Source: an uncultured Planctomycetia bacterium (GTDB lineage: Bacteria > Planctomycetota > Phycisphaerae > FEN-1346 > JAACEH01). Taken from it: a DNA stretch of 64,000 bases. Position 1 is the first letter of the stretch; each line of letters starts with the position of its first letter. The stretch spans positions 1 through 64,000 of the forward strand of contig CAIYVX010000013.1 of NCBI GenBank assembly GCA_903929765.1, read 5' to 3'. Positions 13,303 through 56,434 of this stretch are shown in pieces. Made by a program: the position numbers and the translations under genes. Under the pieces are notes generated by a model. That model was not told the origin of the DNA and did no database searches. It was given only the letters and a program-made list of their open reading frames with translations.

Positions 13303-13520
13303 TGGCCTCAACCCCTCACCCGGCCCTTCGGGCCACCCTCTCCCAAGGGAGAGGGGTGAAACGGCAACGGCAAACGGAAAACGGCGTCTTACAATGTTGG
13401 GCCAGGGCCCAACCTACGTGGTGCGTGCAAGCACGCACCCACATAACGGCAAACCCAGAACATATTCGAGCGGCATTCGGCGAAACATGGCGGCAAACTG
13501 CGGCCGCCATGCCACCCGTC
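13303..13520 (+). repeat. Large composite island of four different hairpin repeats
   Basis: In order: a CCCTCACCC...GGGAGAGGGG element (13308-13358), a CAACGGCAAACGG linker, hairpin TTGGGCCAGGGCCCAACCTAC (13395-13415), hairpin GTGCGTGCAAGCACGCACCC (13421-13440) with ACATAACGGC, and a CATGGCGGC...GCCGCCATGCCACCC hairpin near 13488-13518. The last abuts the stop codon of the convergent minus-strand gene. It fills the whole gap between two convergent genes. Confidence 0.8.
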
Positions 13521-19444: not shown

Positions 19445-19662
19445 GAGAATTAAAAATGAAAAATTAAAAAGTAAAGAAGAAGAAAAAGAAACGGCGGGTG
19501 GCATGGCGGCCGCTGTTTGCCGCCATGAGAATGTCTGGGGAAGTCCGGACGCTTGTTGGCCTCAACCCCTCACCCGGCCCTGAAGGGCCACCCTCTCCCA
19601 AGGGAGAGGGGCGAAGAAAAAGAACACGGTCGGGCAAAGCCGACCGTGGCACATATAAGGGG
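19445..19662 (+). repeat. Composite island: AT-rich block and three hairpin classes
   Basis: AT block 19445-19472; then GGGTGGCATGGCGGCC...GCCGCCATG (19495-19527, the only core here that runs opposite to its copy at 13488); the CCCTCACCC...GGGAGAGGGG element (19561-19612); and CACGGTCGGGCAAAGCCGACCGTGGCACA in two halves (19626-19653). The last hairpin lies only 17 bases before the sixA-like start. Confidence 0.8.
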
Positions 19663-21382: not shown

Positions 21383-21420
21383 GTGCATGGCCACGCAAGC
21401 GTGGACCATGCCACCCACTC
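21383..21420 (+). repeat. GCATGGCCACGC hairpin with CATGCCACCC tail
   Basis: GCATGGCCACGCAAGCGTGG followed by ACCATGCCACCCAC. It is a variant of the CATGGCCGC...GCGGCCATGCCACCC class found inside rsmH and leuS. Confidence 0.6.
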
Positions 21421-49775: not shown

Positions 49776-50531
49776 TCAGGAATCGACCAGGGCGGGGAGG
49801 ATGTCGCCGCTCTTGCCGAGGAGGCTGAGGTCGAGCCAGCGGGAGTTGGGAGTTTCCTCAAGGTTGATTTCGGCGACCAGCGCGCCGGCGTCGGCGGCAA
49901 GGTGGACCAGGCTGGCCACGGGCTGCACGACGGCGCTGGTGCCGACGGAGATAAAAACGTCGCAGGCGCTGGCGGCTTCGACGGCGGCGGACCAGACCTC
50001 GGGCGGCAACATTTCGCCGAACCAGACGATGTGCGGCCGGCAGACGGCGCCGCAGCCGGGGCAATGCGGGACGGCGTCGAGCGGGCCGGGGGCGTCGGTC
50101 ACGGCGGCGCAGCCGGTGCAGCGGATTTGCCAGAGGCTGCCGTGGACTTCGATTACGCCGGTGCTGCCGGCGGCCTGGTGCAGACCGTCGACGTTCTGGG
50201 TGACGAGGCGGAAGGAGTCCGGGCCGAGGCGGGCCAGGCGGTCCTTTTGGAGGGCGGCCAGGGCGAGGTGGCCGGCGTTGGGTTTCAGGGCGGCCAGTTG
50301 GCGGCGGCGGTCGTGGTACCAGGCCCAGACTTTTTCGGGATCGCGGGCGAAGCCTTCGGGCGTGGCCATATCGGCGGCGCTCCAGGCGGCATAGAGGCCC
50401 TCGTTGCCGCGATAGACGGGTACGCCGCTCTCGGCGCTGGCCCCGGCGCCGGTCAGGACGCAAAGGCGCGAGGCGCGGGCGATGGCGGCGCGAAGGCGGG
50501 AGATTTTTTCGGAAAGTCTTGGATCAGGCAT
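49776..50531 (-). CDS. cobB: Sirtuin NAD-dependent deacylase (CobB-like)
   Basis: A 251-residue sirtuin. The NAD site starts GAGASAESGVPVYR (residues 29-42), QNVDGLHQAAG holds the NAD-ribose contact, and EVHGSLW holds the catalytic His. Four zinc cysteines are present: CTGC and CPGC. YHDR near residue 72 fits the Tyr-x2-Arg pocket of class III sirtuins that remove succinyl/malonyl groups. The ATG overlaps the stop of rsmH by 8 bases, so the two are translationally coupled. Confidence 0.9.
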   Translation of the reverse strand: MPDPRLSEKISRLRAAIARASRLCVLTGAGASAESGVPVYRGNEGLYAAWSAADMATPEGFARDPEKVWAWYHDRRRQLAALKPNAGHLALAALQKDRLARLGPDSFRLVTQNVDGLHQAAGSTGVIEVHGSLWQIRCTGCAAVTDAPGPLDAVPHCPGCGAVCRPHIVWFGEMLPPEVWSAAVEAASACDVFISVGTSAVVQPVASLVHLAADAGALVAEINLEETPNSRWLDLSLLGKSGDILPALVDS

Positions 50532-51843
50532 GTGTCACCTTTTTCGCCCAGCGGAAACGGGCCGGGCTGCTGCGGGGATTGTCGCGGATTTCGGCAGCCG
50601 TGGGGCGGAGAAGTTCCTCGCCGCCGGCGTCGTAAACCCCGCCGCGCCGGCCGTCGCGGAAAGACTGTTTCACGAGGCGGTCCTCGCCGCTATGGAAACT
50701 GAGGATACCGATCCGGCCGCCGGGCCGCAGGCACGCCGGGGCGATGCGCAGCAACTGGTTGAGGCTGGAAAGCTCGTTGTTGACCAGAATCCGCAGGGCC
50801 TGAAAGGTGAGGGCGGCGGGGTGGCTTCCGGAGAAAGTCTTGTTTCTACCGGCCTTGACAGGAGAGGGGGTGCCACACCTTGGCCCCCGGTTGTTTGGGG
50901 GCAAGGTGTGTGGAAGGTCGCACACCGTGCCCGGCGAAACGGACCGCCGGGTCACAGTGTGGCACCCAAATCCCTTTGCCTCCAGGACGAGTTCGACCAG
51001 TTCGAGCGTCCGGGCGATGGGGCGGCGCGTGCGGCGGACGACGATCAGGCGGGCGATCTTGGCGGCGTCGGGTTCGTCGCCCAGGTCGGCCAGGGCGGCG
51101 GCCAGTTCCTCTTCGGGCAGGGTGGCCAGGAGGTCGGCGGCCGTGCGGCGGCGGAGGGGGTCCATGCGCATGTCGAGCGGGCCGTCGACTTTGTAGCTGA
51201 AGCCGCGCGCCGGGTCGTCGATCTGCATGCTGGAAACGCCCAGGTCGGCGAAAATGACATCGCAGCCGTCGAGGGCGAGATCGGCCAGGGTGCGGTCGAG
51301 TCCGGCAAAGTTGCCGGGCCGGAGGTCGAGGGTGACGGGCCCCGGGGTGGCATGGCCGCTTGCGGCCATGTTTGTGCCACGCCGAGAAAGGAGGATTTCA
51401 TGGCCGCTTTCGGTCATGTCCGTTTCGCGCCCCGGGCCTGGTTGCTCAATTTCTGCATGGCCGCAAGCGGCCATGCCACCCATCAGCCGTTCCCCGGTGC
51501 GCTCTAACTGTCCCCGGTCGAGGTCGAGGCCGACGAGTCTGCCGCCGGGAAAAATTCGCTTGATGAATTCTGCAGCGTGGCCGCCGTAACCCAGGGTCAG
51601 GTCGGCGACGATTTCGCCGGGCCGGGGGGCGAGTGCCGCCAGGACTTCCTCGACCATGATGGGCACGTGTGTCCCGGCTGGTGTGCGGCCCTGGGCCCGG
51701 ACATGTTGCTGCGTTTCGGGGTATTTGTCGGGCTGGAGTTCCTTGTACTTTTCGTCAAAGCGGACGGGATGTGTGCCCGCGTAGCGCTTGCGGCGGCGAT
51801 GGGGCGGAGGATTGGGGGATGTGTTGGTCATGGAGATCGCCAT
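50524..51843 (-). CDS. rsmH: 16S rRNA m4C1402 methyltransferase with two in-frame insertions
   Basis: A roughly 439-residue SAM-dependent enzyme that methylates C1402 of 16S rRNA; usual length is about 310. HVPIMVEEVLAALAPRPGE, then DLTLGYGGHA, LGVSSMQIDDPARGFS and TFQALRILVNNEL are the family motifs. About 46 residues after LERTGERL (carrying MAACGH, MTESGH and MAASGH) and about 50 residues before HPAALTFQ are encoded by palindromic composites. The catalytic core is intact. The start is ambiguous (ATG 51843 or 51831); neither has a good ribosome binding site. Confidence 0.88.
   Translation of the reverse strand: MAISMTNTSPNPPPHRRRKRYAGTHPVRFDEKYKELQPDKYPETQQHVRAQGRTPAGTHVPIMVEEVLAALAPRPGEIVADLTLGYGGHAAEFIKRIFPGGRLVGLDLDRGQLERTGERLMGGMAACGHAEIEQPGPGRETDMTESGHEILLSRRGTNMAASGHATPGPVTLDLRPGNFAGLDRTLADLALDGCDVIFADLGVSSMQIDDPARGFSYKVDGPLDMRMDPLRRRTAADLLATLPEEELAAALADLGDEPDAAKIARLIVVRRTRRPIARTLELVELVLEAKGFGCHTVTRRSVSPGTVCDLPHTLPPNNRGPRCGTPSPVKAGRNKTFSGSHPAALTFQALRILVNNELSSLNQLLRIAPACLRPGGRIGILSFHSGEDRLVKQSFRDGRRGGVYDAGGEELLRPTAAEIRDNPRSSPARFRWAKKVTHA
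50868..50967 (+). repeat. In-frame composite inside rsmH (second insertion)
   Basis: It has 11-base inverted ends, GGGTGCCACAC and GTGTGGCACCC. Inside are CACCTTGGCCCCC/GGGGGCAAGGTG around GGTTGTTT, and CCCGGCG/CGCCGGG hairpins. It is translated as about 33 residues. Confidence 0.82.
51345..51481 (+). repeat. In-frame composite inside rsmH (first insertion)
   Basis: A perfect 26-base inverted repeat at the ends (51345-51370 and 51456-51481). Each arm is itself a GGCCGC...GCGGCC hairpin with a GGGTGGCAT/ATGCCACCC flank. A third, decayed CATGGCCGCTTTCGGTCATG lies in the middle (51399-51418). All three are translated as M-x-x-(S/C)-G-H. Confidence 0.88.
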
Positions 51844-53860: not shown

Positions 53861-56434
53861 CTACTTCGCCACGATGTTGACCATGCGGTTGGGGATGATG
53901 ATGACCTTGCGGACGGTGGCGTCGGCGATGGATTTGACCACATGCTCGTCGGCCAGGGCCAGGGCGCGGACGGCGTCGTCGGGCGAGTCGGCGGCGACGG
54001 TGATTCGGCTGCGCAGCTTGCCGTTGACCTGAACGGGAATCTCGACCACGTCCTCGCGGCAAGCGGCTTCGTCATAAGACGGCCAACCGGCGGCGATGAG
54101 GCCGCCCTCGTGACCCATCTTTTCCCAAAGCTCCTCGGAAAAGTGTGGGACGATGGGGCCGAGCAGGCGGATCATGGATTCGGCGGCGAAACGGAGGACG
54201 GCGGGGCCGTGCGGGTCGGCGGCGAGAGAGGGCGCGGAGTCGGCGAAGAGGTTGGATAGTTCCATGACGGCGGCGATGGCGGTGTTGAACTGCCAGGAAG
54301 TTTCGATGTCGGCGGTGACTTTTTTGATGGTCTGATGCGTGCGGCGCCAGAGGGCTTTGGCGTTGGGCGAGAGGTCGGAGCCGGAGCCGGCGTATGGGAC
54401 AACATGGCCGCTTGCGGCCATGCCACCCGAATTCTCAACCTGCTCCCACACGCGTTTGAGAAACCGGCTGGAGCCAGCCACGGCCGAATCGTTCCATTCG
54501 GCGTCCTTTTGCGGCGGGCCGATGAAGAGGGTGTAGAGCCGCTGGGTGTCGGCCCCGTACTGGCGGATGATCGCGTCGGGGGCGACGACGTTCCCCTTGG
54601 ACTTCGACATTTTTTCCAACTTCCCGGTCTTAGAGCTTTGCTTGCAGATCATGCCCTGGGTGAAGAGGGCGCGGAACGGCTCGGGCCAGACCGCGCCGAC
54701 GTGGCCGGCGTCGTGGAGGACTTTGAAGATGAAGCGGGAGTAGAGGAGGTGGAGGACGGCGTGCTCGACGCCGCCGATGTACTGATCGACCGGCATCCAC
54801 TGTTCGACTTCCGTTTTGCGGAAGGCCTGCGAATTCGGCTGGCCGGGGCGGACGGGCGAGACGTAGCGCAGGTAATACCAGCAGGAGCAGAGCCACTGGG
54901 CCAGGGTGTCGGTTTCGCGCCGGGCGGGTCCGCCGCACTTGGGACATTTTCCTGCGGCGACCCACTTTTTGTCGCCGGCCAGGGGGCTTTCGCCGTGGGG
55001 GCGGAAATCGACCTCGGCCGTGGGCGGCAGTTCGACGGGCAAATCCTCGTCAGGAACGAGTTGCTCGCCGCAAATGTCGCAATAGACAATCGGAATCGGC
55101 GCGCCCCAATACCGCTGCCGCGAGATGAGCCAGTCGCGGATGCGGTAGTTGATGGTTCCTTCGCCCATATTTTGCTTCACGAGGAATTTGATCACTTCCG
55201 GTATGCCGCTCGGCGACGGCGTACCAGTGAGCGGGCCGGAGTTGACCATTGTGCCGGCATCGACGAAGGCTGCGGTAAGGTCTTCGGCGCGGAGCGGTTC
55301 TTTCTGCCCGTCCGGCTGAATGACGACCTTGATTTCCAGCCCATATTTTTTTGCGAACTCGAAGTCGCGCTGGTCGTGGGCCGGCACGGCCATGACCGCC
55401 CCGGTGCCGTAGTCCATCAGGGCGTAGTTGGCGACCCAGAGGGGCACTTGCTCGCCGTTGACCGGGTTGGTGACGTAGCGGCCGGTGAAGACGCCTTCTT
55501 TTTCGGCGGTTTCGGCGGCGCGATCAACGGCGCTGGTGCGGCGGCAACGCTCAACGAAGGCGAGGACTTCCTTTTCCTGCGGCGTGCCGGCGACCAGGGC
55601 GGGGATCATGGGATGTTCCGGGGCGAGGCTCATAAACGTGACGCCCCAGAGCGTGTCGGGCCGGGTGGTGAAGACCGGCAGCGGCTGGCCTGCACAGCCG
55701 GGGGCGGCTGTGCCACCTGGGGCGACTTTGAAATCGACGCGGGCGCCTTCCGACCGGCCGATCCAGTTGGCCTGCATGGTGCGGACCGTTTCGGGCCACT
55801 GGTCGAGGAGCTGGAGGTCGTCGAGCAGGCGCGGGGCGTATTCGGTGATTTTGAAGAACCATTGCGGCAGGTCGCGTTTTTCGACCGTGGCCCCGCAGCG
55901 TTCGCACATGCCGCCGGCGGCTTCCTCGTTGGCCAGGGCGGTGTTGCAGGAGGGGCACCAGTTGACCGGGGCCTTTTTCCGGTAGGCCAGGCCGCGCCGG
56001 TAGAGGACCGAGAAGACCCATTGCGTCCACTTATAATAAGGCACGTCGCAGGTGGCGACTTCGCGGTCCCAGTCGTATTCGACGCCCCAGACGCGGAACT
56101 GTTCCTTCATCTTGGCGATGTTCGCATAGGTCCATTCGCGCGGGTCGGCCTTGTTCTTGAGGGCGGCGTTTTCGGCGGGCAGGCCAAAGGAATCCCAGCC
56201 CATCGGCGTCAGGACGTTGAAGCCCTTGGTCAGTTTGTACCGGGCCACGACGTCGCCGATGATGTAGTTGCGGCCGTGGCCGACGTGGAGCGTGCCGGAG
56301 GGGTAGGGGAACATGGTCAGGCAATAAAACTTCGGGCGCGGATCGGTGGCGGGATCGGCGGCGCGGAAGGTGCCGTGGTCGGCCCAGTATTTTTGCCACT
56401 TCTTTTCGATCTCTTGCGGCAGGTAATCGGACAC
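53861..56434 (-). CDS. leuS: Leucyl-tRNA synthetase with two repeat-encoded insertions
   Basis: An 857-residue class I synthetase charging tRNA-Leu. The HIGH-type motif HVGHGRNY is near residue 51, and KMSKSKGN near 620. The CP1 editing domain is present (TTRPDTLWG), as are zinc cysteines in WCPSCNTAL...CERC. A short insertion GGTAAPGCAGQP at the edge of the editing domain and MAASGH near the KMSKS-side end are encoded by palindromic repeats. No motif is lost. A membrane-protein gene follows 14 bases downstream. Confidence 0.96.
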   Translation of the reverse strand: MSDYLPQEIEKKWQKYWADHGTFRAADPATDPRPKFYCLTMFPYPSGTLHVGHGRNYIIGDVVARYKLTKGFNVLTPMGWDSFGLPAENAALKNKADPREWTYANIAKMKEQFRVWGVEYDWDREVATCDVPYYKWTQWVFSVLYRRGLAYRKKAPVNWCPSCNTALANEEAAGGMCERCGATVEKRDLPQWFFKITEYAPRLLDDLQLLDQWPETVRTMQANWIGRSEGARVDFKVAPGGTAAPGCAGQPLPVFTTRPDTLWGVTFMSLAPEHPMIPALVAGTPQEKEVLAFVERCRRTSAVDRAAETAEKEGVFTGRYVTNPVNGEQVPLWVANYALMDYGTGAVMAVPAHDQRDFEFAKKYGLEIKVVIQPDGQKEPLRAEDLTAAFVDAGTMVNSGPLTGTPSPSGIPEVIKFLVKQNMGEGTINYRIRDWLISRQRYWGAPIPIVYCDICGEQLVPDEDLPVELPPTAEVDFRPHGESPLAGDKKWVAAGKCPKCGGPARRETDTLAQWLCSCWYYLRYVSPVRPGQPNSQAFRKTEVEQWMPVDQYIGGVEHAVLHLLYSRFIFKVLHDAGHVGAVWPEPFRALFTQGMICKQSSKTGKLEKMSKSKGNVVAPDAIIRQYGADTQRLYTLFIGPPQKDAEWNDSAVAGSSRFLKRVWEQVENSGGMAASGHVVPYAGSGSDLSPNAKALWRRTHQTIKKVTADIETSWQFNTAIAAVMELSNLFADSAPSLAADPHGPAVLRFAAESMIRLLGPIVPHFSEELWEKMGHEGGLIAAGWPSYDEAACREDVVEIPVQVNGKLRSRITVAADSPDDAVRALALADEHVVKSIADATVRKVIIIPNRMVNIVAK
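54404..54429 (+). repeat. In-frame CATGGCCGC hairpin inside leuS
   Basis: CATGGCCGCTTGCGGCCATG followed by CCACCC. It matches the arm of the rsmH composite and is translated as the same MAASGH. Confidence 0.88.
55690..55722 (+). repeat. In-frame GCACAGCC hairpin inside leuS
   Basis: GCACAGCCGGGGGCGGCTGTGC (8-base-pair stem) with a CACC tail. The stem differs from CGGCGGG copies but has the same hairpin-plus-GCCAC layout. It is read in frame as Gly/Ala/Pro-rich sequence. Confidence 0.7.

Follow-up and report, generated by a model that had tools for sequence, protein, structure and literature searches.

Repetitive extragenic palindromic (REP) sequences are found by search rules that ask for GT[AG]G at a distance of 0-2 nt on the 5' side of a stem and, for short hairpins, at least three G/C in the first four stem bases; a double-foot form has been described (PMC6006769). 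The anatomy of REPINs (inverted REP doublets), their linkage to REP-associated tyrosine transposases (RAYTs), and intragenic REPs are already known (PMC2817692, PMC3116915, PMC3733652, PMC6006769); hosts of intragenic GTAG/CGTC REPs include tRNA synthetases and replication genes, and O. terrae also has GTGG-footed elements (PMC3733652). How, and by which enzyme, Rickettsia-like palindromes enter essential genes is an old open question. Here we describe a 137-nt inverted repeat in the rsmH gene of an uncultured Planctomycetia bacterium (assembly GCA_903929765.1), located at 51345-51481 of a 64,000-nt stretch of contig CAIYVX010000013.1, hereafter the window. We consider it likely that this unit is a REPIN whose hairpins belong to a short REP subfamily, I26, moved in trans by a RAYT into housekeeping genes.

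The unit, to which no strand is assigned, has no gene inside it, as the original prediction had it; the whole lies within the open reading frame of rsmH (50527-51831, minus strand; TIGR00006). That prediction also described a nested inverted repeat whose arms are hairpins, with a third, decayed copy between them, and the anatomy is as described: the two 26-nt arms, at 51345-51370 (plus strand) and 51456-51481 (the inverted partner, minus strand), are 100% complementary and spaced 85 nt apart, and a decayed hairpin core with two mismatches and no foot lies at 51399-51418 (plus strand). The plus-strand arm consists of a GGGTGG foot and the hairpin CATGGCCGC/TT/GCGGCCATG. In the RsmH frame the three hairpins are read in order as MAACGH, MTESGH (the decayed core), and MAASGH, the M-x-x-(S/C)-G-H pattern noticed earlier. 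The core pattern has five matches in the window, against at most two in 100 shuffles, and the folding energy of the 137-nt single strand is -51.2 kcal/mol, far below that of shuffles (z = -8.95); Rfam gave no match. By the published rules the I26 hairpin is a REP in most respects—its stem of 8-9 bp and loop of 2-4 nt fall within the 7-20 bp and 2-5 nt allowed, and GG-GTGG stands immediately 5' of CATGGCCGC. The stem start CATG has two G/C in four, below the three or more asked of short REP hairpins; that rule is a search filter and not a definition, and a few known families violate it (PMC6006769).

A genome search for the arms found 22 exact copies of the core hairpin and 2 decayed ones, with none in the reversed control, so the element is not confined to this locus; had it been, this would have spoken against the original prediction. 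The wider family of footed hairpins, GGGTGGCATGG...CCATG, has 207 members in the genome (control 0) and divides into four subfamilies: I26 (the rsmH type), II (..TCCGGCG..), III (..CCACGC..), and IV (..CGGCGG..). Most I26 copies are singles and near-identical in sequence; there are three inverted doublets with feet outward, of 79, 79, and 137 nt (on C12, on C83, and in rsmH). Inspected by eye, the I26 flanks display no obvious common target sequence and no target duplication. One copy, G000:C12:41335-41366 (GGGTGGCATGGCCGCTTGCGGCCATGCCACCC), is double-footed and fully palindromic, possibly a collapsed doublet.

The subfamilies differ sharply in where they sit. A codon-usage model drawn from the genome's own long frames was applied to the 150 nt to the left and right of 108 copies. 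Of the 19 scorable I26 copies, 10 are intragenic and in frame; for subfamilies II-IV the figure is 1 of 88 (Fisher p = 2.6e-8). On the "mainly extragenic" REP trait the family is therefore mixed, the sisters showing it and I26 not. The ten include one rsmH arm; the other arm scored as non-coding on the side where the inter-arm spacer lies, and its assignment to the gene comes from homology. Another in-gene copy, whose foot is a variant, is found in nrdJ (class II ribonucleotide reductase). By NCBIfam the hosts are coaX, kdtA, lipA, feoB, a trpE/pabB-type synthase, murD, nrdJ, an OppA-like binding protein, dnaA, and leuS, which with rsmH make 11 host genes. In 10 of these the core is read as M-A-A-(S/C/R)-G-H (p = 1.3e-4, binomial test with an expectation of one in three), the exception being FeoB, which reads HGRLRP. 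The coding bias of I26 is the stronger pattern here, and the reading frame first seen to be shared by rsmH and leuS gave an early glimpse of it. The leuS copy, a single REP on the minus strand within leuS (53864-56434, minus strand; TIGR00396), is read GGMAASGH—the MAASGH reading given earlier stands, and its position is 54403-54428, one base off the 54404-54429 first reported.

Two other causes of this gene bias were considered and rejected. Stop codons do not explain it: none of the six frames is closed in the main consensus sequences of the sisters, and only the TTCACG variant carries stops, in two frames. Nor does the doublet or single state, as 86 of the 88 sister copies are single.

The enzymes that could move such hairpins are present. 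The genome has Y1-type genes, and four tested proteins, the C33 and C89 RAYTs among them, exceed the cut-off of NF047646, the NCBIfam model for REP-associated tyrosine transposases. The C33 RAYT has subfamily II REPs on both sides (GGGTGGCATGGTCC..) and the C89 RAYT is flanked by subfamily IV REPs (GGGTGGCATGGCGG..), in each case with a foot and stem base identical to those of I26. The original prediction had proposed looking for a RAYT or Y1 transposase with matching ends; matching foot and stem base were found, and flanks of the I26 subfamily itself were not, so that flanking of a RAYT by REPs holds at the level of the family (C33, C89) and not at that of I26. Counted across this genome and relatives under a strict stem rule, GGGTG(G/C)C-footed stems stand on both sides in 13 of 35 RAYT loci and on one side in 3, compared with 43 of 2000 control windows (2%). 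Another locus, the C22 RAYT (G000:C22:20889-21311, L085), has classical GTAG-footed REPs as flanks; GTAG and GGGTG(G/C) systems therefore coexist in one genome.

The element was not seen in the host-gene homologs compared (G001, G003, and G005; for RsmH, G007 and G015). Relative to same-family or same-order homologs the net gain is +7 residues in coaX, kdtA, and murD, +8 in nrdJ, +4 in feoB and oppA, and +2 in leuS; by the same comparison the lipA insert looks composite, pabB gives no clear figure, and the site in dnaA is a linker of variable length or sequence. Since 26 nt inserted cleanly would throw the gene out of frame, the surviving copies must have lost host bases, or their loops changed length later. 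The exact 26-mer was not found in 84,980 GTDB 220 species genomes or IMG/VR, from which this genome itself was possibly left out, and the same-family genome G001 has seven copies of the core hairpin with other feet, 0 of 7 in a gene. This rules out an in-gene habit conserved in the nearest relative; taken together, the two results make the habit look recent and lineage-specific. Two host genes hold further repeats: kdtA (L002, reverse strand, about 1223-1265) has another in-frame hairpin pair, read MGVSPMSPTGILPV, a AGTGGCACGGGCGTCCCGCCCGTG-type repeat that occurs at several other loci of the genome, and in lipA (L010, about 1501-1560) the I26 REP is followed by a TATGGCACCC end resembling another REP class.

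RsmH itself carries two inserts. The second, at 50868-50967 (no strand; about residues 289-325), is a 100-nt inverted doublet of another hairpin class, with feet GGGTGCCACAC / GTGTGGCACCC; the same class flanks the C82 RAYT and has related copies elsewhere in the genome, one of which was scored in-gene (L073). The homologs of G007 and G015 are continuous across the point of the 137-nt unit, where the protein described here gains about 45 residues; it gains about 35 more at the second insert. At the first of these sites the G004 homolog is also longer, by residues unrelated to the unit, so the RsmH loop there is length-tolerant. In a structural model (mean predicted local distance difference test score, pLDDT, 77; predicted template modelling score, pTM, 0.75) the core exceeds pLDDT 90, and residues 132-158 and 294-332, within the two inserts, fall below 50 as loops between core elements. 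Both inserts are thus predicted to be loops outside an intact fold; the underlying alignment is shallow (13 sequences), and low confidence of this kind fits disorder and is no proof of it. The gene is one of a paralog pair, the other being a 322-aa rsmH at G000:C1:16118-16996, and the window copy has an N-terminal extension common to G001, G004, G007, and G015. Elsewhere in the window there are three sister REPs, two of subfamily IV (13486-13517, minus strand; 19496-19527, plus strand) and one of subfamily III (21386-21416, minus strand).

In the account we favor, a RAYT acting in trans would recognise the hairpin with its GTGG foot when the DNA is single-stranded, and move hairpin copies around the genome; the most likely mobiliser is C33 or C89, whose flanking REPs have that foot and stem base. 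Variable loops of housekeeping proteins would have received single copies of 26 nt and one doublet of 137 nt, and selection may have kept only frame-preserving net lengths, mostly those read as the small and apparently neutral peptide MAASGH. The host genes remain open, and their proteins would carry the translated peptide as an extruded loop; the peptide looks harmless. This anatomy supports the earlier idea of a miniature mobile element composed of REP units; it is from the anatomy, and not from observed movement, that we infer mobility. Three points weigh against this account. No RAYT in the genome is flanked by the I26 subfamily itself, and I26 was therefore probably mobilised in trans. 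The net gain of +2 to +8 residues in most hosts is below the 26 nt of a clean insertion, which means that host bases were lost or loops drifted—something that IS200/IS605-type insertion does not predict. Lastly, the genomes compared, none of them from the same genus, offer no empty site resolved to the nucleotide.

These net lengths, unlike those of clean transposition, are also what might recommend a protein-coding palindromic element of the Rickettsia type: a selfish sequence that spreads in genes by a non-RAYT route, its likeness in foot being coincidental or inherited and disused. So might the finding that the copies sit in conserved genes without breaking the frame and favor a single reading, as reviewed for Rickettsia palindromic elements (RPE; PMC2229807). 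We think this unlikely, since the foot and stem base exactly match 200 RAYT-linked hairpins in the same genome and the foot is not the CGTC of RPE-type repeats (PMC3733652). That 10 of 11 genes share a fixed peptide, and that most copies are nearly identical, could instead be taken to mean that a host function of the peptide or RNA hairpin (a linker, mRNA structure, or regulation) favors the in-gene copies; however, recent spread accounts for the identity, the host genes are unrelated, the sites are variable loops, the homologs compared have none, and the same hairpin core in G001 is never in a gene, all of which makes this explanation very improbable.

The perfect 26-bp terminal inverted repeats of the 137-bp unit would suit a miniature inverted-repeat transposable element (MITE) of a DDE transposon, to which we give next to no credence: most copies are single hairpins and not pairs, the I26 flanks lack a visible shared target or the target-site duplication that marks a DDE MITE, and the RAYT-linked family already accounts for the ends. 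The REPIN reading, with a RAYT acting in trans, is the one we retain.

This genome brings together an in-gene palindrome, RAYTs flanked by hairpins of the same foot, and sister subfamilies that serve as an internal control; because all of these coexist in one genome, the question of how palindromes enter essential genes becomes directly testable by biochemistry. The results also suggest that, throughout a bacterial class, there is a clade of RAYTs that goes with a GGGTG(G/C) foot. This foot looks new, and so does a coding bias specific to one subfamily: within the open-licence literature we found no report of a RAYT clade that has GGGTG(G/C) as its general partner, nor of a subfamily that goes into genes in a single frame when sister subfamilies of that genome do not. 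More speculatively, and with more doubt than confidence, the case might be a niche shift from intergenic to coding DNA, in which shortening to 26 nt, and insertion that trims a few target bases, gave a REP subfamily access to essential genes, where it acts as a neutral linker, MAASGH; RAYT-linked REPs and Rickettsia-type palindromes would then form one continuum.

Set against described systems, the family resembles REP/REPIN-RAYT systems (Nunvar 2010, PMC2817692; Bertels and Rainey 2011, PMC3116915; PMC6006769) in that a foot stands beside a hairpin of 9 bp, copies are numerous and some form inverted doublets, RAYT genes have members of the family at their flanks, and one copy is double-footed (C12:41335-41366); it differs in its foot, which is GGGTGG (GGGTGC in relatives) and not GTAG, in that about half of I26 is intragenic, and in having no RAYT flanked by the exact subfamily. 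Like intragenic GTAG/CGTC REPs such as those of O. terrae and R. conorii (Di Nocera 2013, PMC3733652), the I26 copies are read through within conserved genes; here, however, most are lone units of 26 nt, all from one subfamily and in one frame, and the sister subfamilies avoid genes. The likeness to RPE (PMC2229807) is that of palindromes inserted in frame in conserved protein genes, with the 137-bp rsmH unit falling within the 105-146 bp of RPE. In contrast to RPE, whose related repeats end in a CGTC tag (PMC3733652), the I26 elements have another sequence and a GGGTGG foot, are mostly 26 nt long, and are tied to RAYT-linked hairpins.
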